Assembly (NCBI RefSeq): GCF_024662215.1
Contig: NZ_CP096115.1
Coordinates: 248,001-312,000 of the forward strand
Source: Methanoplanus endosymbiosus
GTDB lineage: Archaea; Halobacteriota; Methanomicrobia; Methanomicrobiales; Methanomicrobiaceae
Reading direction: 5' to 3'
Length of the DNA stretch: 64,000 nt
Shown: positions 16,473 through 53,964 of the stretch, piece after piece
How the letters are laid out: each line of letters begins with the position of its first letter
How positions within the stretch are numbered: position 1 is the first letter of the stretch
Notes under the pieces: generated by a model
The model's database searches: none
Seen by the model: only the letters and a program-made list of their open reading frames with translations
Told to the model about the DNA's origin: nothing
Made by a program: the position numbers and the translations under genes

Positions 16473-17447
16473 ATGAAGAAAAAAAATATTCTGGTAATTC
16501 TGATTCTTCTGACTATATCTCTCTTCAGTATTATCTTCTCAATATCCCTTGGACCGACAGAGGTTGAACTGTCCACCCTTCTGGGCATTTTTTTAAATCC
16601 TTCCGGGGCTGATCAAACTGCAAATCTGATAATATTGGACATCAGACTGCCAAGAATATTGTCGGCATTTTTTGTCGGCTGCGGGCTGGCTGTTGCCGGT
16701 GCGGTGATGCAGGGACTGTTCAAAAATTCAATGGCTGACCCTTATATTATCGGAACTTCCTCAGGTGGTGCACTTGGTGCTGCCATATCAATAGTAATTT
16801 TTGCAGGTGCCGGCCTTCCGATATTTGCATTCATTGGTGCAACAGGAGCAACGCTTATGGTGTATGTTCTTGCAACCAAAAACGGCAGAGCGCCGGTAGA
16901 GACTCTTCTTCTCTCCGGAGTTGCCCTGTCCATGTTCTTCTCAGCAATACTCTCATTTTTGATGTATAATGCCGGAAAAAGTCTTCACCAGATTGTCTTC
17001 TGGCTGATGGGAGGTTTCTGGAACGTAGGGTGGACTGATGCTTTAACAGGCCTGATTATTATCTTTGCATCAGTATTTCTCCTCTTCTTCTCAAGGGATT
17101 TAAATATCCTCTCTTTAGGTGAGGATGATGCCGGCACTCTCGGTGTTAATGTTGAACTGCTGAAGAAAGTTCTTCTTGTTGTAAGTTCTCTTGTTGCCGG
17201 AATTGCGGTTGCGATTGCCGGTGCTATAGGTTTCATAGGGCTTATTACCCCTCATGTTATGCGCCTCATTGTCGGGCCTGATCACAGGGTGCTCATACCT
17301 TCGTCACTACTTGCCGGAGGACTTTTTTTACTGTGGGCTGACAATATGACCAGAACATTCTTCAATGAAATGCCGGTCGGAGTAATAACTGCATTTGTTG
17401 GAGCACCGTTCTTCCTGCTCCTGCTCAGAAGGAGGATGAAGGCATGA
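16473..17447 (+). CDS. btuC: Corrinoid/iron-siderophore-type ABC transporter permease (BtuC/FecCD)
   Basis: Membrane permease of 324 residues with about nine or ten transmembrane helices. Family marks include RLPRILSAFFVGCGLAVAGA, the GTSSGGALGA loop, and AGAIGFIGLITPHVMRLIVG, which holds the coupling region contacting the ATPase. It has the normal FecCD length less a few residues. ATG 16473 follows an AT-rich promoter (TTTTACTTAATACAA). Its stop overlaps the start of the ATPase gene by 4 bases. FecCD permeases carry vitamin B12, heme or siderophores; the neighbouring BtuF-type protein and DUF4430 protein favour corrinoid. Confidence 0.9.
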   Translation: MKKKNILVILILLTISLFSIIFSISLGPTEVELSTLLGIFLNPSGADQTANLIILDIRLPRILSAFFVGCGLAVAGAVMQGLFKNSMADPYIIGTSSGGALGAAISIVIFAGAGLPIFAFIGATGATLMVYVLATKNGRAPVETLLLSGVALSMFFSAILSFLMYNAGKSLHQIVFWLMGGFWNVGWTDALTGLIIIFASVFLLFFSRDLNILSLGEDDAGTLGVNVELLKKVLLVVSSLVAGIAVAIAGAIGFIGLITPHVMRLIVGPDHRVLIPSSLLAGGLFLLWADNMTRTFFNEMPVGVITAFVGAPFFLLLLRRRMKA

Positions 17448-18661
17448 TCATTGTAGATGACATATCTTCGGGATATGGCGGGGATGACATAATCCGTGAC
17501 ATATCATTTTCACCGGGAGATGGCGAATTTGTGGGAATTATCGGGCCGAATGGTTCGGGTAAGAGTACTCTTCTCAAATCCATTGCAGGAATTTTAAATC
17601 TTTCATGCGGAATTGTAAAGATTGATGAACTTGATGTATCAAAGGTTTCACCAAAAGATATGGCTAAAACTCTCGGTGTTGTCCCCCAGGAGACTGCAAT
17701 ATCCTTTGATTATTCGGTATTTGATATTGTTATGATGGGCCGTCATGCGTACATCGGCAGATTCAGCCAGGAATCAGCAGAAGATATTGACATTGTGAAT
17801 CATGCAATAGATACATGCAATCTCAGACATCTTGCAGAGAGATCTGTCAATGAAATCAGCGGCGGCGAGAGACAGAGAGTGATTATTGCAAGAGCACTTG
17901 CACAGCAGCCAAAAGTTCTTCTCCTGGATGAGGCAACATCTCACCTCGATATCAATCACCAGATGGAGATACTAAACCTGATAAAGGACCTCTCAGGTGT
18001 GACAAAGATAGGGGTATTCCATGACTTAAATCTTGCATCCCAGTACTGCGACAGGCTTATTTTGCTGAATAACGGGAAAGTCTGCTCATCCGGTCTGCCA
18101 AATGAGGTTATTACCCAGAAGAATCTCTCGGAATTTTATGGTATTAATGCAGTTGTAGCTGTTAATCCGATCACAAAAAAACCGAAGATAGTTTCTCTCA
18201 TTGAATCCGGAGACAAATCAGCAGAAAAACTTAACATTCATATCATCTCCGGCGGAGGTTCGGGTTGTGAGATAATGTATGCCCTTTATGAATGCGGGCA
18301 TATTCTCACTGCCGGAATTCTGTCCATTGATGACTCGGACTACTATGCAGCCAAATCACTTGGAATTGATGTACTGTCAGTTATGCCGTTTTCACCTCCG
18401 GATAATGCAATGCTCTGTAAATTATCAGAAATAATCTCAGAGGCAGATGCTGTTGTTATTGCCGGCATGTGTGTCGGTGACGGGAATATTGTGAATATTG
18501 ATGTTCTCACGGAAAATCAGGATATACCTGTATATGTGGTCGGTGAATTTTCAGATTTCACTTCCGGCGGAAAACTGAATGATACCCTTTCAAAGATCAA
18601 AAAACGGATACATTATGCCGGAGATCTCTCCGGACTGTCTTCAGAAATATCCGGCAGATAA
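17444..18661 (+). CDS. btuD: BtuD-type ABC transporter ATPase with C-terminal extension
   Basis: ATP-binding subunit of the importer, 405 residues. Residues 1-255 are a normal FepC/BtuD ATPase: Walker A IGPNGSGKSTLL, Q-loop VPQETAISFDYS, signature ISGGERQRVIIARAL, Walker B LLLDEATSHLD and H-loop GVFHDLNLA. About 145 further residues follow. They begin LNIHIISGGGSGCEIMYAL and include ITAGILSIDD-like strands and DAVVIAGMCVGDGNI, giving the look of a Rossmann-type nucleotide or corrinoid binding domain. The extension is not needed for transport in Escherichia coli BtuD. It may regulate transport or help process the incoming corrinoid. The start overlaps btuC by 4 bases. Confidence 0.9.
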   Translation: MIIVDDISSGYGGDDIIRDISFSPGDGEFVGIIGPNGSGKSTLLKSIAGILNLSCGIVKIDELDVSKVSPKDMAKTLGVVPQETAISFDYSVFDIVMMGRHAYIGRFSQESAEDIDIVNHAIDTCNLRHLAERSVNEISGGERQRVIIARALAQQPKVLLLDEATSHLDINHQMEILNLIKDLSGVTKIGVFHDLNLASQYCDRLILLNNGKVCSSGLPNEVITQKNLSEFYGINAVVAVNPITKKPKIVSLIESGDKSAEKLNIHIISGGGSGCEIMYALYECGHILTAGILSIDDSDYYAAKSLGIDVLSVMPFSPPDNAMLCKLSEIISEADAVVIAGMCVGDGNIVNIDVLTENQDIPVYVVGEFSDFTSGGKLNDTLSKIKKRIHYAGDLSGLSSEISGR

Positions 18662-18670
18662 ATTAAACTT

Positions 18671-18688
18671 ATTTTAGTTATCTAAAAT
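18671..18688. promoter_or_regulatory. Dyad between btuD and the giant surface protein gene
   Basis: ATTTTAG-TTAT-CTAAAAT is a perfect 7-bp stem with a 4-base loop, 10 bases after the btuD stop. TTATATAATT lies about 30 bases further on, before the next gene. It could be an attenuator that lowers read-through, or an operator of a second promoter inside the cluster. Confidence 0.4.
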
Positions 18689-18749
18689 CTGCGTGAATTA
18701 TTTATTCCCTGAATACCAACATTATATAATTAGTTCTGGAGTTAATTTT

Positions 18750-21700
18750 ATGATATTGGGTATGAATAAGCGGATATATTGCTTAACAATAACATTTCTT
18801 TTAATTATTACATTATTATCAGGAACAGTTTCAGCGTCAGATGCTGATGACCTGAACTCTTCTCTATGCGGGGAGGGTATTGAAGAATACAGGGTTTTTC
18901 CGGGAAATTCCATAGGGAATATTTCTGATGTCGAAAATGAAAAGATGAGATCTTCCGGAGAATCAGTGTCATGTTCTGATTCTGTTAATCCGGATGATTC
19001 TGTAATAGAACAGGTGATCCAACCGGATACGCAGAATAATAACAATTGTCTTTTTTTTGATGAGGAGATTATAACATCTGAAGGCACAGGCCCAAAAACC
19101 GCAAACATCCGCTGGAATACAACTCCTCTCTCCGGTGATGCTGATACTCCGCCTCTAATTGCGGATGGCAAAGTCTTCGTCTCCACCTGGTGGACGACAA
19201 ACCAGATGGATGATTATTACCTCTACTGCTATAACCAGAGTGACGGCACATTTCTCTGGAAGAACACACTTGCCAGTGGAATTGGATCATACCTCGCTTC
19301 AGCCGCAACAGGTGGCGGCAGGATATTTGTCCGGGGCATAAATGGTGTTCTTTACGCCGTTGATATGGATACAGGGGTGACCAAATGGACAAAAACCCTT
19401 GATACCTCGCCTCTGTGGTGGAGCCAGACAACATCATCCCCTGTTGTATCCGGAGATTATATTCTGGCAGTCTCCCAGACAACCGGAATTTTAAGGAAGT
19501 TTGATTTTTCCGGCAATGAGATTAAGACATTCAACGGAGGAGGAACTCTGGAACACAGGAGTTCTCCGGTTGTATCCGATGGAGATGCCTATTTCGCTGC
19601 CGGAGATTCGTTAAAGCTTTTCTCAATTAATTTTGAAACCTTTGAAGAGAACTGGAATTTTGTATCATCTGAAAAGATACTCTCATCACCTGTAATTGGT
19701 ACTGATGCACTTTACTTCACCACTTCATCATACCTTTATGCTCTCAATAAAAGTTCCGGTGAAGAACTCTGGATTGCTGCCATAAGTTCGCCAAGCGGTG
19801 CCGGCACTCCTGCTTTCTCAGACGGGCATCTCTATGTAGGTGAAAAGGACGGGCTGCATAAATACAGTTCAGCAGACGGATCTGAAGTGTGGCATTACTC
19901 ATCAGCAAGCATTGCAGCATCTCCCGCTATTGCTGAGAATGGGGTATATTTCGCCACCAATGAGAAAGCCGGAAAAGTAATCTGCTTAAATCCTGATGAC
20001 GGCACTCTGATCTGGGAGTATACACAGGCAGCACCTGCCGGAGGCTACTTTGCGGCATTCTGGGGTTCATCACCGGTAATTGATAATGAAAAACTCTATA
20101 TCGGCGGTGCATATTATAACACTCTATACTGCTTCGGCAAAATGGATGATTTCAGCTGGAGCGGTGATGTCACACTTGAGGAAGGGCCTGATTTTAAATA
20201 TTCACCAACGAACAATCCGTCAGCAGATTACAATGTAAATGCGGCATCTGATCTTGCAGCGCTGAAGAAAGCGTCAGAGAAAGGCGGGTTTGAGTATTAT
20301 ACAGATGATTCATCATATCCTTCATACAATACATTTGAGCTTACCGGAATTGGAGGGATAAACCAGACAGATGACCTCTCATACTGCTGGTCAGAATACA
20401 TCAACGGTGAGAGAATATCAGAAGGGCTTGCCGGTAATATTTTAAGAGACGGAGACCTTCTCCAGTTTGCCTATGGATTTTGCGATTCCGGGAAAGGGAT
20501 TTACCCGGCACCGGACAACTCCGACAATTCTGTCAATATTACAGTTTCTGTTCTAAAAAAGCAGAACAAAGGGCCAAAAACCTCAAACATCCGCTGGAAT
20601 ACAGCTTCTCTCTCCGGCGATGTTGAGACACCACCCGTTATTGCGGATGGCAAAGTCTTCTTCTCCACCTGGTGGACTACAAACAAAATGGATGATTATT
20701 ACCTCTACTGCTATAACCAGAGTGACGGATCATATCTCTGGAAGAATACACTTGCAAATAATGTAAGTTCTTACCTGGCTTCTCCGGCATCAGGCGGCGG
20801 CAATGTATATGTAAGAGGTACTGACGGTGTACTGTATGCTGTTGATATGGATACCGGAAAAACCAACTGGACAAAAACACTTGATAATTCGCCACAGTGG
20901 TGGAGTCAGGCAACCTCCTCCCCCGTAGTATCAGGAGATTATATTCTGGCAGTTTCGCAGACAACCGGAATTCTGAGGAAATTTGACTTTGAGGGCAATG
21001 AAGTTAAAACATTCAACGGTGGAGGAACACTGGAATACAGGAGTTCTCCCGTTGTATCCGGTGAATATATCTATTTCGCAGCCGGAGATTCTCAGAAACT
21101 ATACTCTTTAAATTTTGAGACCTTTGAGGAGAACTGGAATTTTATATCACCTGAAAAAATACTCTCATCACCTGTTATGGGCACAGATAGTATTTATTTC
21201 ACCACTTCGTCAAACCTGTATGCCATCAATAAAAGTTCCGGAGAAGAACTATGGAGCACTGCCATAAGTTCACCAAATGGTGCAGGCACCCCTTCATTCA
21301 TGGACGGACATCTGTATGCTGGTGAAAAGGATGGTCTGCATAAATACAGTGCAGCAGACGGTTCTGAAGAGTGGCATTATTCATCTGCAAGCATTGCAGC
21401 CTCTCCGGCTATTGCTGAAAATGGCATATATTTTGCCACCAATGAGAAAGCCGGAAAAGTAGTCTGTGTAAATCCGGATGACGGCACTCTGATCTGGGAA
21501 TATGCACAGGCAGCACCTGCCGGAAATTGCTTCGCGGCATTCTGGGGTTCATCTCCGGTAATTGACAATGAAATGCTCTATATCGGCGGTGCATATTACG
21601 ATACTCTCTACTGTTTCGGCCCGGAAATGCCACTTGGAGAACCACACCTCTATGCCTCTCCAAAAGGCGGAAAGGCACCGGTAAATGTAAGTTTTTCTGC

Positions 21701-23903
21701 AACCGGGTGTGAAAATGCAAAGAGATTCGTTCTGGACTTCGGTGATGGTTCAGATAAACATATCTCCGGCAGTCTCTCAGGTGTATCTGTATTACATACC
21801 TACACAAATGTCAGTGAATATACTGCAAAACTTACAGCATATAATAGTGATGAAACTGAATCACGCTCCTGCGATCTGAAAATAAACGTAATCACTGCTC
21901 CGGTGAATAAAACAGCCGAAAATTCTGTCTCAGCCAATGTTCCGGGAGTGAACATTTCGGTTTCACAGCCAGGAATACAGGATATAAGCATTAATCTCTC
22001 CGGTTGGGAAGAATCAGACGGAGTTGCAGGATATACAAAACCTGACGGAACAGAGGTAACGATTCAGACCGGAAATTATACCAAATCAGGCGATGTACTT
22101 TCAGGTGAAGTCACCTCAGTAACAATATCGTCTCCGGGTATAAACGGCAGTGAGATTAGCCCGGATGTGGGAAATGCTTCAGTAAACTTTAATTTTACAA
22201 TGGGTGACTACCAGGAGAATGCCACAGTTGAGACTACCATCTCTCCGGACGTGGTGGATGATGCCAAAAATGCCTTCTCTGTTGCATGCACAGATTCAAA
22301 TCTTGTATGTGACAGTATTGCATATACCGTCTATTTCACAAAATCAGGATTTACCAATGATTCATCAGTCTCAGGAGTAAACCTCTCCTTTACTGTTAAA
22401 AATACCTGGATTGACAGTCAGGGTGGGATTTCAGATGTCAGGATTATAAGATGGAAAGATGACGGAGAGAGTGAAGTTCTGTCACCGTTTTCATATGATA
22501 TTTCCGGAAATTACACCCGGTTATATGTCTATTCCGATGGATTTTCAGTTTATGGCCTTATTATGGCACACAGCAATGCACCTTCACCAACTCCGACTAC
22601 CGGAGGAGGTGGGGGCGGAGGAAGTTCACTGACATACACCCCGGTGACACTTTCATCCGGTACATTTGAAGTAACTGCTACGAACAGTGGGAAAGTCTAC
22701 GATGTTGACATATGCACTGCCCTTGGTATCCTTCATGTAAAGGGAATTTCATTTGTGGTAGATGACGGCTGGTATGCCGAGTATGGAACTCTGTTTGTTA
22801 AATCAGTGCAGGGTGAGGATAATGAGGGAAATGCCGGCTGGATGTACCAGGTAAACGGAAATACAGGAAATATTGGTGCTAATGTATTTAAACTGAACAA
22901 TGGCGATGAGGTATTATGGTATTATAGCGAGAGCATGGAATCCGTGCCCGAAGAATCGGCTCAGAAGATTGCACTTAAAGCCAGTATCTCTTCCTCAGCT
23001 TCGGGCAGTTCCGGCTCTTCTGGCGGAGGTGGCGCGGCCACCACATCAGGTGGAAATGTTTTGGCAGCAACCGGTTCAGTTGATCTGGCAATCGGGCTGC
23101 CTGAGGATTCATCCTTAACCCTTGAAGGCGGAAGGATGTACTTCTCAATAGATATTCAGTCTGCAAAATCCTCCGGTGAGGTGATTGTTCAGGATAAAAA
23201 TTCCCTGATAATCACAAGGGGAGATTTAACTCTTAAAATAAGGTTTAAGGATTATAAAGTACGTGATGGTGTAACTTCCGGTGAGATAGAATCTATATCA
23301 ATCTCCACTGCTCCGGTAATTAAAAATTCCGGGATGGATGCAGGAGTAAAAGCCTGCCTTGATATGGAGATGAACAGTATCCCTGTTGACGGCCAGCTTA
23401 TCCTGTCAATACCTGATGATGTCGATTCCGAGGAAATTAACCGGCTGCTTAAAAGCTCAGGCACAGGAAAAGTAATCGGCAATGCGGTATATGAGCTTGA
23501 TGCTGAGAAAGAGAATATTGAAAACGGTGTGGATGTTGCTTCTGCAACTGTATATATGACTGTGCCGGAAGATCTTCTCAGCAGTAAAGGGGAATTATCT
23601 GAATTCAGGATTGTCCATATACTGGATGATGGCGGTGCAGAGATAATTACACCTGAAATCCTCAATGATGATGAACCGGGCCTGGTGACATTTAAGGGTA
23701 TATCTCAAAACGGTGTATCATCCTCATTTGTTCTTGCAACAATTACATCAGAGAGTAAATCTTCAGGTCAGGCAGGCGAAGATAATCTGAATCTGACCGG
23801 AGAAGAGAATAATGCAGAAAAATCCGGTTCATACGCAATGCCGGTTTTTGCTGTACTGGCTGTTCTGTCTCTTGCAGCAGCCCTGAAATATAACAGGAGA
23901 TGA
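18750..23903 (+). CDS. Giant membrane-anchored surface protein: two beta-propellers, two DUF4430-like domains, PKD
   Basis: 1717 residues. Approximate order: signal peptide (1-30); acidic spacer; first PQQ-type beta-propeller (about 115-463); a DUF4430-like domain (about 465-605, with ASDLAALKKASEKGGFEYY and GIGGINQ); a second, nearly identical propeller (about 609-957); a PKD domain (VSFSATG, DFGDGSDKH, HTYTN); a beta-rich PGF-pre-PGF-like region (RIIRWKDDGE); a glycine run; a second DUF4430-like domain (about 1291-1396, with GWMYQVNG and NNGDEVLWYY); a Ser/Gly linker; another beta-rich domain; and a C-terminal helix with a basic end. DUF4430 is the beta-domain of intrinsic factor and transcobalamin. 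ATG 18750 has GGAG nine bases upstream. The next gene overlaps, so the protein is cotranscribed with the toroid-BtuF gene. A corrinoid-capturing role is inferred. Confidence 0.85.
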   Translation: MILGMNKRIYCLTITFLLIITLLSGTVSASDADDLNSSLCGEGIEEYRVFPGNSIGNISDVENEKMRSSGESVSCSDSVNPDDSVIEQVIQPDTQNNNNCLFFDEEIITSEGTGPKTANIRWNTTPLSGDADTPPLIADGKVFVSTWWTTNQMDDYYLYCYNQSDGTFLWKNTLASGIGSYLASAATGGGRIFVRGINGVLYAVDMDTGVTKWTKTLDTSPLWWSQTTSSPVVSGDYILAVSQTTGILRKFDFSGNEIKTFNGGGTLEHRSSPVVSDGDAYFAAGDSLKLFSINFETFEENWNFVSSEKILSSPVIGTDALYFTTSSYLYALNKSSGEELWIAAISSPSGAGTPAFSDGHLYVGEKDGLHKYSSADGSEVWHYSSASIAASPAIAENGVYFATNEKAGKVICLNPDDGTLIWEYTQAAPAGGYFAAFWGSSPVIDNEKLYIGGAYYNTLYCFGKMDDFSWSGDVTLEEGPDFKYSPTNNPSADYNVNAASDLAALKKASEKGGFEYYTDDSSYPSYNTFELTGIGGINQTDDLSYCWSEYINGERISEGLAGNILRDGDLLQFAYGFCDSGKGIYPAPDNSDNSVNITVSVLKKQNKGPKTSNIRWNTASLSGDVETPPVIADGKVFFSTWWTTNKMDDYYLYCYNQSDGSYLWKNTLANNVSSYLASPASGGGNVYVRGTDGVLYAVDMDTGKTNWTKTLDNSPQWWSQATSSPVVSGDYILAVSQTTGILRKFDFEGNEVKTFNGGGTLEYRSSPVVSGEYIYFAAGDSQKLYSLNFETFEENWNFISPEKILSSPVMGTDSIYFTTSSNLYAINKSSGEELWSTAISSPNGAGTPSFMDGHLYAGEKDGLHKYSAADGSEEWHYSSASIAASPAIAENGIYFATNEKAGKVVCVNPDDGTLIWEYAQAAPAGNCFAAFWGSSPVIDNEMLYIGGAYYDTLYCFGPEMPLGEPHLYASPKGGKAPVNVSFSATGCENAKRFVLDFGDGSDKHISGSLSGVSVLHTYTNVSEYTAKLTAYNSDETESRSCDLKINVITAPVNKTAENSVSANVPGVNISVSQPGIQDISINLSGWEESDGVAGYTKPDGTEVTIQTGNYTKSGDVLSGEVTSVTISSPGINGSEISPDVGNASVNFNFTMGDYQENATVETTISPDVVDDAKNAFSVACTDSNLVCDSIAYTVYFTKSGFTNDSSVSGVNLSFTVKNTWIDSQGGISDVRIIRWKDDGESEVLSPFSYDISGNYTRLYVYSDGFSVYGLIMAHSNAPSPTPTTGGGGGGGSSLTYTPVTLSSGTFEVTATNSGKVYDVDICTALGILHVKGISFVVDDGWYAEYGTLFVKSVQGEDNEGNAGWMYQVNGNTGNIGANVFKLNNGDEVLWYYSESMESVPEESAQKIALKASISSSASGSSGSSGGGGAATTSGGNVLAATGSVDLAIGLPEDSSLTLEGGRMYFSIDIQSAKSSGEVIVQDKNSLIITRGDLTLKIRFKDYKVRDGVTSGEIESISISTAPVIKNSGMDAGVKACLDMEMNSIPVDGQLILSIPDDVDSEEINRLLKSSGTGKVIGNAVYELDAEKENIENGVDVASATVYMTVPEDLLSSKGELSEFRIVHILDDGGAEIITPEILNDDEPGLVTFKGISQNGVSSSFVLATITSESKSSGQAGEDNLNLTGEENNAEKSGSYAMPVFAVLAVLSLAAALKYNRR
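19092..20138 (+). repeat. Propeller module copy 1 (direct repeat, 1047 bp)
   Basis: This stretch, coding for the first propeller, repeats at 20574-21620 with a constant offset of 1482 bases and no insertions or deletions. Most codons and most bases agree, including long identical runs such as the region coding for SGDYILAVSQTTGILRKFDF. The copies diverge by scattered substitutions, many at third positions, so the duplication is not an assembly artefact of identical reads. Confidence 0.9.
20574..21620 (+). repeat. Propeller module copy 2 (direct repeat, 1047 bp)
   Basis: Second copy of the propeller-coding module. The first copy is at 19092-20138 and the spacer between them (20139-20573) codes for a DUF4430-like domain. 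The boundaries are sharp: copy 1 ends after LYCFG and leads into DDFSW; copy 2 ends after the same LYCFG and leads into the PKD domain. Confidence 0.9.
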
Positions 23904-23908
23904 TTAAT

Positions 23909-25924
23909 TTGAGAAAAAAACTGATATCAGTATTTTTAACTGTACTCTTCTTAGTACTGGTCTGCCCGGCAGACAGTTATCCGCTTGGTCTGTCAGACCA
24001 GGAGATAACAGGATCGATAGATTACTTTAAGACATGCCAGAAGTCCGACGGTGGTTTTGGCGAGCAGGATCGTAACTCCAACCCGGGTACTTCAACATGG
24101 GTTATACTTGCCCTCGCCGCTGCCGGAGAAGATATTTCTGAATGGAAATCCGGTAGTGTTTCGGCTATGGATTACCTGAAATCACTTGCACCTGAGACTG
24201 TTGCGCTGGATGGTACATCAGAGACATCAAAGATGATTCTTACCCTGGTAGCTATCGGTGAAGATCCACGCAGTTTTGAAGGAACAGATTTTGTAACTCT
24301 CCTAAAGAGTAAGGAGAAGGATTCCGGGCAGTATGGCGATCATATATATACCACAAACTGGGCTGTTATGGCATTGTCTGCTGCCGGTGAGGATGTTTCA
24401 AAGTCAGTACAATGGCTTGAATCACAGCAGAATGATGACGGTGGTTTTGGCTGGACAACAGGCGCTGAAAGTGACAATGATGATACATCTTCTGCCGTTA
24501 TGGCATTATGCTCAGCAGGAAGAAGTTCATCATCCCCGTCAATAAAATCTGCAATATCATTCTTCAGAAACAGCCAGGGTGATGACGGCGGCTTCAATTA
24601 CGGCGGCTCAAGTTCATCCAATACAGCATCTGATTCGTGGGTTATTCAGGCACTTATCGCCGCCGGAGAAGATCCAATCAGTTTTGTAAAGGATGGTAAA
24701 TCTCCGGTGGACAACCTTATGACATACAGGACAGATGATGGTTATTTCATGTGGACATCACTCTTAACTGACAATCCATGCAGAATGACCTCAGCCGCAG
24801 TCCCGGCACTTCTTGGAATTCCATACCCGATAAAACCTGATGACCACCTCTCAGTTGCAAAAACATCAGCAGGCAGCCAGTCAGGCAGTACCTCAAAGGA
24901 CTCTTCGTCAGATGCTGACTCAACAGGTTCTTCATATCTTTCCGGTTCTGATGCTTCATCAGAGGATTCCAACAGAGCAGTAATCGTAGTTGATGACTTT
25001 GGCAGAAGTGTTGAAATTAACGGTTATCCACAGAGAATAATCTCCCTTGCACCTGCAAACACTGAAATTCTGTATGCACTCGGCCTTGGAGACAAAATTG
25101 TGGGTGTGACAGATTATTGTAATTATCCGGCAGAAGCTGAAACAGTTGAAAAAGTCGGTGGATATTCCACTCCAAATGTTGAAAAAATAGTAGCTGCAAA
25201 ACCTGATCTTATCATTGCATCATTCGGGAACACCGAAGAAGTGGCAAATAAACTCAGGAATATGGGCTTTGTTGTGATCTCAACAAATCCAACTGACATA
25301 TCAGATGTTTTAAATGACATTACCATTATCGGAGAGGCAACCGGAACTGAGACAAAAGCCAGAGAAATTGTAACTGATATGGAAGACCGCATTAATTCCA
25401 TACGGACAAAGGCCGCCGGAGCAGATGAACATCCGACAGTTGCACATATGGTATGGTACGATCCTGTCTGGGTCAGTGGAAGTGAGACCTTCCAGAATGA
25501 GATGTTTGAGATAATCAGTGCAAAGAATGCATTCCCTGAGGTGAAAGGATGGGGCACTGTCAGCCTTGAAGAGTTTGTTGTCACAAATCCGGATGTGATT
25601 GTCGTAAGTTCAGGCTCAGGTATGGGTACAGAAGGGAGGGATGTAATCTACAATTACCTCATGGAAGAGACAAGATTCAAAAACATGAATGCGGTGAAGA
25701 ATAACCGTGTCTATGTTGTTGACGCAGATATTATTGACAGGGGCGGACCGAGAATTGTTGACGGACTTGAGGAGGTTGCAGCCGATGTTTATCCTGATCT
25801 CTTTACATATACAGCTAATAGTGAAAATAATAACTCCGAATCAGCCCCACTCGGAATGTCGGTTATAATGTCGTTAATTGCAGGTTTATCCATTGTTTTC
25901 CTGCGGGGAAAGGAGAAAGCCTGA
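23909..25924 (+). CDS. Alpha/alpha-toroid fused to BtuF-type corrinoid-binding protein
   Basis: 671 residues. A signal peptide (ISVFLTVLFLVLVCPADS) leads into about 285 residues of prenyltransferase/squalene-cyclase-type repeats. These show QKSDGGFGE, QQNDDGGFGW and SQGDDGGFNYGG, and three copies of a W-V-I/M-x-A-L-x-A-A-G-E-D helix. A Ser-rich linker (about 315-355) joins a BtuF/FepB-type binding domain (about 357-645) containing DDFGRSVEI, RIISLAPANTEILYALGLGDKIVGVTDYCN (given here only as a landmark over 380-407) and KPDLIIASFG. A C-terminal helix ends in GKEKA. TTG 23909 is chosen because AGGAG at 23894-23898 would sit directly against the in-frame ATG at 23900. The toroid resembles the alpha-domain of transcobalamin; the BtuF part would deliver substrate to BtuCD. 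Corrinoid specificity is inferred. Confidence 0.88.
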   Translation: MRKKLISVFLTVLFLVLVCPADSYPLGLSDQEITGSIDYFKTCQKSDGGFGEQDRNSNPGTSTWVILALAAAGEDISEWKSGSVSAMDYLKSLAPETVALDGTSETSKMILTLVAIGEDPRSFEGTDFVTLLKSKEKDSGQYGDHIYTTNWAVMALSAAGEDVSKSVQWLESQQNDDGGFGWTTGAESDNDDTSSAVMALCSAGRSSSSPSIKSAISFFRNSQGDDGGFNYGGSSSSNTASDSWVIQALIAAGEDPISFVKDGKSPVDNLMTYRTDDGYFMWTSLLTDNPCRMTSAAVPALLGIPYPIKPDDHLSVAKTSAGSQSGSTSKDSSSDADSTGSSYLSGSDASSEDSNRAVIVVDDFGRSVEINGYPQRIISLAPANTEILYALGLGDKIVGVTDYCNYPAEAETVEKVGGYSTPNVEKIVAAKPDLIIASFGNTEEVANKLRNMGFVVISTNPTDISDVLNDITIIGEATGTETKAREIVTDMEDRINSIRTKAAGADEHPTVAHMVWYDPVWVSGSETFQNEMFEIISAKNAFPEVKGWGTVSLEEFVVTNPDVIVVSSGSGMGTEGRDVIYNYLMEETRFKNMNAVKNNRVYVVDADIIDRGGPRIVDGLEEVAADVYPDLFTYTANSENNNSESAPLGMSVIMSLIAGLSIVFLRGKEKA

Positions 25925-27108
25925 TGAAAAAATATTTTTTTCTTTTTTTTTCCCTGCTTCTCATACTGACAATTCCTTCTTTTGCTGCTGCCGGAAATAA
26001 TGCAGTCAGTACTGATGAAATATACTTTGAAAAGCTCTGGGAGGTAAGAACTGTTCCCGGCACAGCGGAGATTTCCATATCCGGTGACGGTGAAACATTA
26101 GCAGGTGGAGGCACAGGCGGATTTTTCTGCTGCGATAATAAAGGCAGTATATTATGGACAAAAGAACTTGGACTATCAGATAATGCTGCTGTATCAGATG
26201 ATAGCAGAAAAATACTCTCCGGTGGTGTTTCACTCAATCTCTTTGACCATGACGGCAGTTCATTATTCAGGAAAAATTATGGCTATGTCATAAGATCCGT
26301 TGCAATTTCTCATGAAGGTAATCTTCTCTATTTTGCAACAGATAATCAGGATTTGAATATTTATAATACTACAGATGAAACAGAGGTCAGTTTTGATGCA
26401 GGATATGACCTTGATTCAGTTGCAGTATCAGAAGACGGAAACTATATTGCAGGAGGGTCATCAATTGGGGATCTGATATTTATGGATGAGGAGGGCAATA
26501 ACATCTGGACGAGAAAATCCCATTCAGGCAAACCTGTAATTGACCTTGATCTCTCTTCAAAGGGTGATTTTATTGTTTATACCGTTGATGACACACTAAA
26601 CGCCCTGTCACGTACCGGAAATATCCGCTGGAATAAACTAATTGCAGGTGCAAAAGGAGTCGCATTGTCTGCTGATGGCTCTTACACAGCTGTTGCACAT
26701 GATGGTCACGTATCTGTTTTTAACCGGAATGGTGATCTGCTTACAGATATTCCGGGTGTTAATGGCGTAAAGGACCTCTCATTCTCTGATGACGGCGAAT
26801 ATCTTGCATTCTGCACAGATGACACTTCCGGATTATTCCGGATGATAACCAAAGAGTCATCGGGCGTTACAGGCAGTGATTACAGTTCTGATAATACTGA
26901 AGGTCTGGATATATCAGAGAGTAGAGATTATTCAGAAATTCCTCCTGAAGGCGGCAATAAGGATAAACCTCTTTTTTCTGATGTCAGAAATACAGCCGGA
27001 GCAGAAAGAACTGAGAATCCGGAGCAGTCAGGAAATCCTGTTATCGCCCTGACAGGAATATTATTGTCACTGCTTATTGCCGGTTATATTTCCGGCAGAG
27101 ACTGGTAA
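25924..27108 (+). CDS. Membrane-anchored WD40-like beta-propeller protein, last gene of corrinoid cluster
   Basis: 394 residues. The signal peptide (FFLFFSLLLILTIPSFAAAG) is followed by about 300 residues of degenerate WD40/PQQ-like blades. They show a recurring pattern of the type ISGDGETLAGGG, VSEDGNYIAGGSS, LSADGSYTAVAHDG and FSDDGEYLAFCTDD. Then come an acidic spacer and a C-terminal hydrophobic helix ending SGRDW. The start codon overlaps the previous stop (TGATG), with AGGAG upstream, so it is translated with the toroid-BtuF protein. Function is unknown; as an anchored propeller it may scaffold the capture complex outside the cell. Two cysteines (FFCCDN) sit next to each other in the first blade. 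Confidence 0.8.
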   Translation: MKKYFFLFFSLLLILTIPSFAAAGNNAVSTDEIYFEKLWEVRTVPGTAEISISGDGETLAGGGTGGFFCCDNKGSILWTKELGLSDNAAVSDDSRKILSGGVSLNLFDHDGSSLFRKNYGYVIRSVAISHEGNLLYFATDNQDLNIYNTTDETEVSFDAGYDLDSVAVSEDGNYIAGGSSIGDLIFMDEEGNNIWTRKSHSGKPVIDLDLSSKGDFIVYTVDDTLNALSRTGNIRWNKLIAGAKGVALSADGSYTAVAHDGHVSVFNRNGDLLTDIPGVNGVKDLSFSDDGEYLAFCTDDTSGLFRMITKESSGVTGSDYSSDNTEGLDISESRDYSEIPPEGGNKDKPLFSDVRNTAGAERTENPEQSGNPVIALTGILLSLLIAGYISGRDW

Positions 27109-49762: not shown

Positions 49763-51001
49763 ATGAATCAGATCATAAGATGTCTCCGGTTCATATCAAC
49801 CATGAAATATAATATTCTTCCCGGAATTCTGATTATTTTAATCATCATTCCTGGTGTTATGGCAGATGACGGAATTGATGTATGGGGTTATACAGTTCCT
49901 GAACTCAGTGCAGGACCTGGAGATGAGGTGTATGCACACTATACAATTGAATATAATTTTGATTCCGATGCCGAATCAATTGAATTTTATACCGATCTTC
50001 TGGAACCAAAATGGAGATTTGCCATTGTAATTGACGGTGTAAGGCATGATCTACCTGTACGGCACAGTCGTTATGAGACTATAACCGGTTTTGAACTATA
50101 CTACCCAAAGACCTACAATAATTATGTTGAAGCTGAATTAAACGGTACTGTGCCTGAGGTTTTAACTTCGGGAGAACATGATGTCATGACAGTCTCATAT
50201 TATGATGGCGGCGGAAACCTTGATGATGAAGAGATCATCAGAATAAATTTTGTAAATCCTTCTGATGTGTCATCCGGAATTTCCGGTGCAGAATATGAAC
50301 TTTCAGTGCTGAAGGCAGCTATTGACGCTGACAGAATTTCCGGAGTGAATACAACTCCTGCATATGAAAGATATATCAATGCTCTCTCTGCTGTTGAGGC
50401 TGCAAAGGTTTCTGATGCAGGCGTGGCATCTCAGCTGATTTCATCAGCCGAAGCAGATATTGCCGATGCTTATGCACTCCTTGAAAAGTACGGTGCGCTC
50501 TCGTGCATTTACAGAACTGAGGAGAAGACTGAGTCACTTGATGAAATAATTTCGTCATTGTCAGACGGTGGTTCTGAATCACAGGATAAGATCTGGATGG
50601 TCAGGTCATATAATGAGAATGCCAAAACCCTGATCATTCTTGCTCAGGACAAGTATAATTCCGGGCTGTACGGGGAGGCAGAAAATTATGCCCTTCAGGC
50701 TGAAGCAAAGGCAGATGAAGCATACAGTTATGCAGGATATTCATCTTCCGGAACAGATGATCCGGCACGGGCCGGGGAAACAGGCGAACCGACTCAGAAG
50801 GTTAGAGATTTCACACCCGGAATTTCAACCGGGATTGGCGGGATTTCCGGCAATCTCTCTGAATCAGAAGATATTGATGACCTTATTCATTCTGAGGTCA
50901 GTATTGAGAGTTTCCTTCAGATATCCGGAAAACTGTTTGATCTCTTAAAGGGTATGGGGGATTTCCTATCTCAGATTTCTTCCTATGCCTCTTCCAATTG
51001 A
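49763..51001 (+). CDS. Exported protein of unknown function, coupled to UspA
   Basis: 412 residues. An N-terminal signal peptide (YNILPGILIILIIIPGVMA) is followed by a beta-rich domain (about 35-170, GPGDEVYAHYTIEYNF, VIDGVRHDLPVRHSRYE). A helical alanine-rich section (about 175-330) has coiled-coil character and TPR-like alternation of Ala and Leu, for example YGEAENYALQAEAKADEAYSYAG. Then come a Ser/Gly/Thr linker and a final helical segment. No transmembrane anchor is seen at the C-terminus. ATG 49763 follows the uspA stop directly; Met14 (49802) is an alternative. The end overlaps the converging CofD-like gene by 36 bases. No family recognised. Confidence 0.7.
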   Translation: MNQIIRCLRFISTMKYNILPGILIILIIIPGVMADDGIDVWGYTVPELSAGPGDEVYAHYTIEYNFDSDAESIEFYTDLLEPKWRFAIVIDGVRHDLPVRHSRYETITGFELYYPKTYNNYVEAELNGTVPEVLTSGEHDVMTVSYYDGGGNLDDEEIIRINFVNPSDVSSGISGAEYELSVLKAAIDADRISGVNTTPAYERYINALSAVEAAKVSDAGVASQLISSAEADIADAYALLEKYGALSCIYRTEEKTESLDEIISSLSDGGSESQDKIWMVRSYNENAKTLIILAQDKYNSGLYGEAENYALQAEAKADEAYSYAGYSSSGTDDPARAGETGEPTQKVRDFTPGISTGIGGISGNLSESEDIDDLIHSEVSIESFLQISGKLFDLLKGMGDFLSQISSYASSN

Positions 51002-51868
51002 CATTATATCCCAGGCAAGGGACTCATTTTTTCCTTTAGTGCCGGTATTGGCGTGAATTTTCATTGTGCCTGAAATTTCTGTCTCCTCTTTTATATCCTG
51101 AATAATTATATCGGAAAATCTCCGGCAGAGAGCCACTGTTCTGTCATACATGACCGCCTCTCTGCATTCCGGATATTTGTCAGGCATACGCGGCAGAAGA
51201 GAGATGACTTTTGCCGATTTAAGTGCAGTTACCATTCCCCTGCATGCCAGAACCGGAAGAACTGATGTGGCATAATCCCCCGGACCAATGATTACAAATT
51301 CTGAAGATATGATGGCATTTATGGCCTTTTGTGCTGCATATGGTATTCCGGCAGACAGGATCATAACTGATTCAGCAGAGAGTGGTTTTAATTCTCCGGT
51401 GTTTACCAAATCCCTGTATTCTGCCGGAGAATATGATACCTCTCCAACCTTTACTGCTGCTGATATTCTTCTCTCTGTTGCCGGAATTATTGTGGCCGTT
51501 ATGCCTAAATCAGAGCAGAACTCTCTTGTGATCTCTGTTATCTTCAGCCCCGAACGTATCATCTCCGCCCTTGCAATCTGAAGTCCTCTCTCGCGATCAC
51601 CTGTTTCATAATATTCCGGGTGGTTCATCCGTTCAAGAAATTTATCTGTAGAGTAGGTATCACCTGCAATTCCGGCCCACGTATTTGTGTTTAAAATTCC
51701 GGAGAAGAGGAAGAGGAGGTTATCAATATTATGGGATACAATTCCGCCACTCATCGTAAAGGAGTCAGATGTATCTGAGATTACTGTTATTTCATCGTCA
51801 TTGAGAAAAGATCGCAGACCTGATATGAGTCTTAAGGAATATTTTCCACCGGAAATTATTGTTATCAT
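50966..51868 (-). CDS. Divergent CofD-like paralogue
   Basis: 300 residues with the CofD fold pattern but altered motifs. Where cofD reads LSGGTGTPKLIRGFR, this protein has ISGGKYSLRLISGLR. Other matches are FLFSGILNTNTWAGIAGDTYSTDKFL, ETGDRERGLQIARAEMIR and VIIGPGDYATSVLPVL (cofD: GPSNPVTSISPIL). The loop glycines around the phosphate are changed and the DTSDSF segment replaces cofD's NTAEDM. It may transfer a different nucleotide-activated or phosphorylated group, or be a regulator of F420 synthesis. It overlaps the exported protein gene by 36 bases at its 3' end. The true cofD lies about 1.2 kb away on the same strand. Confidence 0.75.
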   Translation of the reverse strand: MITIISGGKYSLRLISGLRSFLNDDEITVISDTSDSFTMSGGIVSHNIDNLLFLFSGILNTNTWAGIAGDTYSTDKFLERMNHPEYYETGDRERGLQIARAEMIRSGLKITEITREFCSDLGITATIIPATERRISAAVKVGEVSYSPAEYRDLVNTGELKPLSAESVMILSAGIPYAAQKAINAIISSEFVIIGPGDYATSVLPVLACRGMVTALKSAKVISLLPRMPDKYPECREAVMYDRTVALCRRFSDIIIQDIKEETEISGTMKIHANTGTKGKNESLAWDIMSIGRGIGRNLR

Positions 51869-53025: not shown

Positions 53026-53964
53026 TCACTTTCTTTCCCTGATGATTTCAATAAGTGAACCGGCAAGTTCTCTGCTGATCTCTTTATTTAACATAAGTGT
53101 GTCAAACCTGACTGATCTCTCAACCGGAATTTCATCCCTGATGTCCTGAACAAATATATCTGTAAATTCACTGTACAGGCTGAATGTGGCAGCTGAATCC
53201 GGAGCCATACCCCATGCCTCCATCAGTTCCTTTGCAGGGCCGCTTATCGGAGTGTCACCTATGAACGGGCTGACTGCGATTACAAATTTATCCTGCAGGG
53301 CCTCTTTTATTCCGGCACATTCAAGTATTGGTGATATGCTTGTTACAGGATTTGAAGGGCCGAGGATGACTGCGTCTGCATTTCTGATAGCGTCCAGTGC
53401 TTCTGTGGTTGCTTTAGCCTTTGAGTAATCTCTCACAACCTCATCAATTTTAACCCTCCCCTTATGCCTCACCCAGAACTCCTGAAAATGGATCAGTCCT
53501 TCTTCAGTTCGTATATAGGTGGTGACCTCTGAATCTGTCATAGGGAGAACTTCCGCTTTAACACCAAGCTTTTCACACAAAAGTTCTGTGGACTGTGTAA
53601 GAGATTCTCCTTCTCTGAGCATCCTGCCCCTTGCAATATTTACCGCACGATCGCGATCCCCAAGTGTCAGGTAGATGTTCTCACCAAGATCCCTCAGATA
53701 ATCATTGGTAATTGTTGTATCACCCCTAATACCCCACCATAAGTCAGTGTTTAAAATTCCGGCAAAGAGGTACATGACTGTGTCAATATCCGGTGACAGG
53801 TGGCTTCCGTAGATCCACATATCCTCAGCTGTGTTTACAATAACTGAGATATTTTCATCATCAAGATGACTTCTAAAACCCCTGATAAGCTTTGGAGTGC
53901 CTGTGCCTCCGGATAAGAAACAGATCTTCATCGGATTATGACTGTCATCATTGCTTTTATTCAT
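53026..53964 (-). CDS. cofD: 2-phospho-L-lactate transferase (coenzyme F420 synthesis)
   Basis: 312 residues from ATG 53964; about 301 from Met12 (53931), which is where the family sequence begins (MKICFLSGGTGTPKL). CofD joins a 2-phospholactate-type moiety to the deazaflavin Fo, giving F420-0. Landmarks are SGGTGTPKL, NTAEDMWIYGSHLSPDIDTVMY, TLGDRDRAVNIARGRML, GPSNPVTSISPILECAGI and SPFIGDTPISGPAKELM. TTTAAAG at about 53990 may be the TATA box for a nearly leaderless message. The divergent copy at 50966-51868 is a paralogue. Methanogenesis needs F420 as hydride carrier. Confidence 0.95.
   Translation of the reverse strand: MNKSNDDSHNPMKICFLSGGTGTPKLIRGFRSHLDDENISVIVNTAEDMWIYGSHLSPDIDTVMYLFAGILNTDLWWGIRGDTTITNDYLRDLGENIYLTLGDRDRAVNIARGRMLREGESLTQSTELLCEKLGVKAEVLPMTDSEVTTYIRTEEGLIHFQEFWVRHKGRVKIDEVVRDYSKAKATTEALDAIRNADAVILGPSNPVTSISPILECAGIKEALQDKFVIAVSPFIGDTPISGPAKELMEAWGMAPDSAATFSLYSEFTDIFVQDIRDEIPVERSVRFDTLMLNKEISRELAGSLIEIIRERK

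Follow-up and report, generated by a model that had tools for sequence, protein, structure and literature searches.

The window, i.e., the 64,000-nucleotide stretch of Methanoplanus endosymbiosus DNA analyzed here, is part of a single-contig genome of 3.16 Mb. Between positions 16473 and 27108, five genes follow each other head to tail (gaps of −4, 31, −4 and −1 nt), and the fourth encodes an α/α toroid and a BtuF-type substrate-binding domain in one chain. The following features were assigned:

16473..17447, + strand: BtuC-type permease, 324 aa (open reading frame; type assigned from context and from relatives in syntenic loci)
17444..18661, + strand: BtuD-type ATPase, extended at its C-terminus by about 145 aa (PF00005, 1.9e-31)
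18693..23903, + strand: 1736-aa surface protein, in the order propeller, DUF4430, propeller, PKD, DUF4430, C-terminal part
20298..20474, + strand: first DUF4430, between the two propellers (PF14478, 24.2 bits)
22653..22967, + strand: second DUF4430, β-grasp, transcobalamin-like (PF14478, 51.3 bits; alignment A5, 27 rows)
23900..25924, + strand: fused toroid–BtuF chain, 674 aa, a single open frame without internal stop
23900..23980, + strand: N-terminal hydrophobic helix, probable signal peptide (AlphaFold2 helix, aa 2–20)
23993..24832, + strand: α/α toroid, about aa 32–311 (Pfam, AlphaFold2, alignments A1 and A4)
24842..24973, + strand: Ser-rich tether, aa 315–358 (serine content, AlphaFold2 disorder)
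24974..25804, + strand: BtuF-type substrate-binding domain (PF01497, BtuF sequence and fold matches)
25856..25918, + strand: C-terminal membrane-anchor helix, aa 653–673 (AlphaFold2 helix)
25924..27108, + strand: propeller protein, 394 aa (PF13360, 1.8e-7, and WD40-type matches; 1-nt overlap with the fused gene)

A sequence-only reading of the locus had started the fused chain at 23909, which is an in-frame TTG three codons into the frame that opens at 23900; the parts it had described were all recovered. According to Pfam, the N-terminal half is a toroid of the prenyltransferase/squalene-cyclase kind (PF13243, 6.6e-13; PF00432, 1e-11). Both motifs named beforehand lie in it, i.e., DGGF at residues 50, 179 and 228 (at 278, the variant DDGYF) and the helix motif W-[VA]-[IV]-x-A-L-x-A-A-G-E-D three times, at residues 67, 154 and 247. 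The BtuF-type domain is complete, with PF01497 matching residues 380–610 at 1.1e-42 (146.5 bits, above the cut-off of 27.5); the architecture search proposed as a check finds a PF00432-type toroid and PF01497 in one chain. Structure prediction, proposed as well, was carried out with AlphaFold2 on a 28-row alignment and gave two folded units, one of them the toroid, joined by a disordered stretch (pLDDT 85 for the chain, below 50 for residues 318–355). In the tether, 17 of the 44 residues are serine, and the predicted helix at residues 653–673 is a likely membrane anchor. Many relatives carry a PGF-type motif at the C-terminus, which the window copy lacks.

The order was represented by 150 genomes, and at least 43 of these contain a match that covers both halves of the chain (from residue 14 or earlier to residue 636 or later); as judged by the named loci, the relatives within the order are Methanomicrobiales. 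Among the matches listed, and excluding the window's own genome, full-length relatives share 42–88% identity; partial matches, e.g., G115, G128, G131 and the second G135 copy, were left out of the tally. The fusion is present in 30 of the 77 fetched loci, with tethers of 25–48 residues that are mostly rich in Ser, Thr, Pro and Ala and not conserved in sequence. A flexible tether is expected to look like this, with compositional bias but without sequence conservation. The sequence-only reading had named a sequencing error joining two genes as what would undo the fusion. Such an artefact is ruled out by the full-length relatives and the fetched loci, together with the toroid tree described below. 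Confinement of the toroid to the window genome was likewise rejected, as 79 of 392 genomes searched in the phylum match profile A4 (E ≤ 1e-20).

In the toroid tree (43 rows, toroid matches of about 240 aa or less omitted), each architecture forms one branch (SH-aLRT 98–99), and all 29 fused rows lie on one side of a single branch (SH-aLRT 99). This is consistent with one fusion event. The BtuF half alone gives no single origin, because fused and solo BtuFs of the Methanomicrobiales are intermixed in its tree (84 rows, 8 changes); the solo copies may stem from duplication or from loss of the toroid. Rows counted as solo in this tree include fragments, e.g., L092_SOLOno_2, a fused ORF with a weak toroid match that is cut at a contig edge. 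In locus L093, toroid and BtuF lie in overlapping frames at the contig start, perhaps because of a frameshift. A second, solo BtuF gene stands beside the fused one in L071, L072, L074, L075, L077, L081 and L082; the window operon has none.

BtuC and BtuD share the operon with the fused gene, BtuD being assigned by Pfam and NCBIfam and BtuC by synteny and relatives only. At 319 bits (4.3e-95), short of the cut-off of 537, the top-scoring NCBIfam model for the ATPase is NF007082, ‘corrinoid ABC transporter ATPase’. Its C-terminal extension (window 18218–18658) recurs in BtuD of most relatives and matches no Pfam family among the best 25 of 27 Pfam matches. The 1736-aa surface protein contains PF13360 (1.3e-68), PKD (1.7e-6) and, in two stretches, PF14478 (1.6e-16; 61 bits, above the cut-off of 23.8). 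In the loci of 19 relatives, the fused gene is always adjoined by a DUF4430 gene (19/19) and nearly always by the downstream propeller gene (18/19; weak in L045, at a contig end). BtuC and/or BtuD are found in 16 of them, and the remaining three (L045, L046 and L054) stop at a contig end. In a Methanoculleus UBA430 MAG (L076:9650-13102), a single case, toroid, BtuF and propeller are encoded in one frame of 1151 aa, which ties the downstream propeller to the system.

In the sequence-only reading, the tether would let the toroid swing to a partner and return ligand to BtuF; of this, the meeting of the toroid with a partner is supported here. The likely partner is the second DUF4430 (22653..22967), encoded in the overlapping upstream gene, which that reading had not connected with the toroid. 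In the window, DUF4430 and toroid lie in separate neighboring genes and not in one chain. Twelve Archaeoglobi loci encode both in one chain, followed by BtuF as the next gene, and L123 and L135 have separate genes for DUF4430, toroid and BtuF, all three adjacent (the MAG labels of L120, Nitrosotalea, and L135, Methanosarcinales, possibly reflect misbinning). Bacterial cases were found as well. On a Latilactobacillus plasmid, DUF4430 and an ECF transporter are encoded after an LPXTG-anchored toroid, and in Vescimonas a DUF4430 gene precedes the neighboring toroid gene; bacterial and archaeal toroids have D-x-D-x-T, N-x-x-S and a G-x-D/N stretch in common. The three ways in which the genes are cut, together with the bacterial examples, show that the link between DUF4430 and toroid survives rearrangement. 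The Priestia protein (L172), a prenyltransferase-repeat protein of generic type, has no DUF4430 among the neighbors listed and was omitted from alignment A6.

Where at least 5 kb of flank were available on both sides, DUF4430 was found within 6 kb in 23 of 23 toroid loci, compared with 1 of 14 BtuF loci without toroid; these loci are interrelated, come partly from the same genomes as the 19 above and hence do not represent independent events. Without the flank restriction, i.e., over all 77 fetched loci, DUF4430 is nearby in 41 of the 48 loci with a toroid and in 3 of the 29 without. The toroid profile used for the flank counts was more sensitive than the one used earlier (48 vs. 46 loci). The genes from 16473 to 27108 form an operon that includes the fusion, and we observe the architecture of the fused chain, its conservation and its association with DUF4430 directly in the genomes.

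In transcobalamin, B12 is sandwiched between a toroid and a domain of the DUF4430 family. We propose, with a probability of roughly 0.6, that the operon serves corrinoid uptake and that toroid and DUF4430 form a split, transcobalamin-like clamp, which is tethered to BtuF and feeds BtuCD. The toroid on the BtuF chain and DUF4430 on the upstream propeller protein would be the two halves of this clamp; carried by two anchored proteins, they would close on the corrinoid outside the membrane. The tether would keep the catch within reach of BtuF, which would take over the corrinoid and then deliver it to BtuCD. The propellers might act as first catchers, similar to BtuG of Bacteroides, a propeller at the cell surface with a link to genes for B12 uptake (passages of PMC6143338); this is an analogy only. 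We infer the corrinoid ligand and its capture, the ligand-driven assembly of the halves and the handover to BtuF. Closure by the ligand is proposed by analogy with human transcobalamin, as passages of PMC5599065 report that its α and β domains, when made separately, join only upon cobalamin addition. More tentatively, and with somewhat less than even odds, the system could be a naturally split transcobalamin, in which the corrinoid itself is the glue between two surface proteins and, by holding them together, brings the catch to dock on BtuF and BtuCD. Under the same joint estimate, lineages would have re-cut one ancestral clamp in three ways, i.e., as toroid with BtuF, as toroid with DUF4430 and with all parts separate.

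The identity of the ligand was assessed from the BtuF half and from neighboring genes. The BtuF half matches BtuF of V. cholerae at 2.2e-31 and BtuF of E. coli at 4e-26, and its fold aligns with E. coli BtuF with a Z score of 26.9 (rmsd 2.3, 242 aligned). Tyr422 of the fused chain is found at the place of E. coli BtuF Trp66, and a Trp66-to-Tyr mutant of BtuF with bound cobinamide is present in the PDB. The chain missed the cut-off of the NCBIfam BtuF equivalog NF002894 (122.7 bits vs. 234), and we therefore speak of a BtuF-type domain and not of an orthologous BtuF.

CbiZ, an adenosylcobinamide amidohydrolase, is a corrinoid salvage enzyme. In the Archaeoglobi operon it lies between BtuD and the propeller gene (a cluster of 5 loci; PF01955 confirmed in all three scanned, L115, L134 and L136), and the gene order in L115, L126, L134 and L136, four loci in which the stretch is completely covered, is BtuC, BtuD, CbiZ, propeller, DUF4430–toroid, BtuF. 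This position of CbiZ points to a corrinoid ligand. CbiZ is absent from the stretch in other Archaeoglobi loci, e.g., L116 and L130, and from the window operon, near which no corrinoid gene besides the BtuCD-type genes was identified. CbiB is close to the system in L135. The window's own genome has CbiZ elsewhere (L140:1402-2379) and also CbiD; since CbiD is present, the host could make its own B12, and with both genes it may combine synthesis and salvage of corrinoids. The CbiZ of this genome has a Cys-rich tail, and a Cys-rich ORF that is similar by eye stands beside CbiB at L135:3087-3452.

The most probable alternative keeps the surface uptake machine but gives it a ligand other than a corrinoid, which would be heme or a different metal tetrapyrrole, a siderophore or some other metabolite. 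Heme and siderophores are likewise bound by Peripla_BP_2 domains, the top PDB match of the BtuF half carries an iron-binding label (4m7o, 6e-41), and heme and siderophore binders reach Z scores of 25–29 with it, alongside BtuF. Moreover, CbiD is present in the host, and Burroughs et al. 2007, in passages of PMC1796856, suggested that the ligand in B12-producing archaea is a distinct metabolite. We nevertheless consider a non-corrinoid ligand unlikely, given that the Archaeoglobi operon includes CbiZ, that CbiB is close to the system in L135, that the BtuD-type ATPase matches a corrinoid ATPase family, and that DUF4430 is the family of the transcobalamin β-domain.

The sequence and fold matches of the toroid count against the split clamp. 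Toroid profiles A4 (30 archaeal rows), A6 (10 archaeal and 3 bacterial rows) and A7 (3 bacterial rows) were compared with PDB sequences: A4 found squalene-hopene cyclase at 7e-30, whereas up to E = 10 neither transcobalamin nor intrinsic factor appeared with any of the three. PF01122 is not among the Pfam matches listed for the toroid up to E = 1, and hence we say that the toroid would work like transcobalamin, not that it is one. Because the BtuF half filled the fold search with the whole window chain, the toroid fold was judged on an Archaeoglobi chain. Cyclases reached Z scores of about 26 and intrinsic factor 21.5 (3kq4, rmsd 3.1, 244 aligned) and 21.3 (2pmv). Since cyclases score higher, the α/α toroid fold is not diagnostic of transcobalamin. 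The DUF4430 part of the Archaeoglobi chain gave no fold match among the matches listed, and at a pTM of 0.56 the AlphaFold2 model of this chain is too uncertain for the packing of DUF4430 on the toroid to be read from it. In the PDB, the DUF4430 profile matched 3u7z at E = 0.13, with two unrelated-looking chains below.

The DxDD motif is the catalytic acid of class II cyclases. The toroid has a conserved DxDDT at residues 192–196 (D192-N-D194-D195), which aligns with DVDDT of squalene-hopene cyclase (DVDD 374–377) and of drimenyl diphosphate synthase, with the latter in one register across 194 residues. In the alignments, the invariant columns include toroid residues, those of DxDDT and the GG motifs among them; some Methanocorpusculum rows have Asn at the last Asp of DxDD, and Firmicutes toroids beside DUF4430 keep D-x-D-x-T without the last Asp. 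The toroid did not pass the NCBIfam cyclase models (squalene_cyclas, 40.6 vs. 322.7; hopene_cyclase, 33.8 vs. 431). The match to the SCO2321 family membrane protein model NF053823 also stayed below the curated cut-off (114 bits vs. 300). Although the toroid is nearest to cyclases by sequence and fold, a role in binding is more likely than one in catalysis, because DUF4430 is always near in well-flanked loci, Btu genes accompany it, the chain is probably secreted and the last Asp is absent in the bacterial toroids.

The toroid might also have no ligand of its own and serve only to position BtuF in the cell wall, as a structural or adhesive module. Archaeal surface proteins often carry repeat domains, and the neighbors here are propeller and PKD proteins, but the invariant DxDDT and GG motifs are at odds with this role, and a spacer needs no DUF4430 alongside, yet all 23 well-flanked loci have one. 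We hence regard it as improbable. A toroid that is an enzyme and not a binding half, resembling class II terpene cyclases but secreted and with a single domain, would explain the top sequence and fold matches to squalene-hopene cyclase and drimenyl diphosphate synthase and the aligned DxDDT, but is very improbable given the fixed association with DUF4430 and Btu genes, the probable secretion, the single toroid of about 290 aa, and the last Asp that is missing in Firmicutes and Asn in some Methanocorpusculum rows.

The proposed split corrinoid clamp has counterparts in known systems. As in transcobalamin, intrinsic factor and haptocorrin, an α/α toroid would work with a DUF4430 (SLBB) β-grasp domain. 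Unlike in these animal B12 carriers, the archaeal halves lie on two proteins, with the toroid joined to BtuF, and the archaeal toroid has no sequence match to PF01122 or a solved transcobalamin. A BtuF-type domain, BtuC and BtuD are shared with BtuCDF of E. coli and Vibrio, whereas the archaeal BtuF is probably membrane-anchored and carries toroid and tether, and surface partners would replace the outer-membrane receptor. The DUF4430 family corresponds to SLBB in Burroughs et al. 2007 (PMC1796856), whose SLBB passages describe surface proteins with toroid and SLBB in either order, in fusions and in operons, as well as propeller–SLBB fusions, several SLBB proteins per operon and CbiO/CbiQ-type transporter neighbors. 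The term ‘BtuF’ is absent from the main text of that paper, and its SLBB passages contain no fusion to a substrate-binding protein. A literature search, with subscription journals mostly outside its scope, found no published report of a toroid–BtuF fusion. The claim of the sequence-only reading that the combination is new to characterized transporters thus agrees with this search, with the reservation that toroid–DUF4430 fusions and operons had already been published. As far as these searches show, neither the toroid–BtuF fusion nor an ABC importer with the proposed clamp halves on two of its surface proteins has been published; the parts and their pairing are known.

If the proposal is correct, archaea without an outer membrane would catch corrinoids by a ligand-assembled clamp and pass them to an ABC transporter. 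This clamp would share its two domain folds with the animal B12 carriers and would show the coupling of a very tight two-domain B12 clamp to a transporter. DUF4430 and toroid would obtain a testable joint function in archaea, which also bears on the question of 2007, i.e., the ligand of archaeal SLBB proteins.

Further genes were noted in the loci compared. In the same genome as the window, an ORF of 1123 aa (L043:8616-11984, i.e., G000:C1:38615-41983) contains six near-equal DUF4430 repeats and a dockerin-type C-terminus; two large ORFs downstream of it are, by eye, papain-type peptidase-like with PKD domains. Downstream of the system in the Methanoculleus locus L071 (14240-17023), the other strand encodes a CbiQ-type transmembrane protein, a double ATPase and a small ORF, perhaps an ECF transporter. 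Eight toroid loci, including L071:13082-13822 and L081:19338-20063, carry a gene for a xylose-isomerase-like TIM barrel (PF01261 in the one scanned, L081), in several loci near the BtuD or propeller gene. In the window itself, two nearby ORFs on the minus strand (50966-51868 and 53026-53964) are alike by eye and may be CofD-like.
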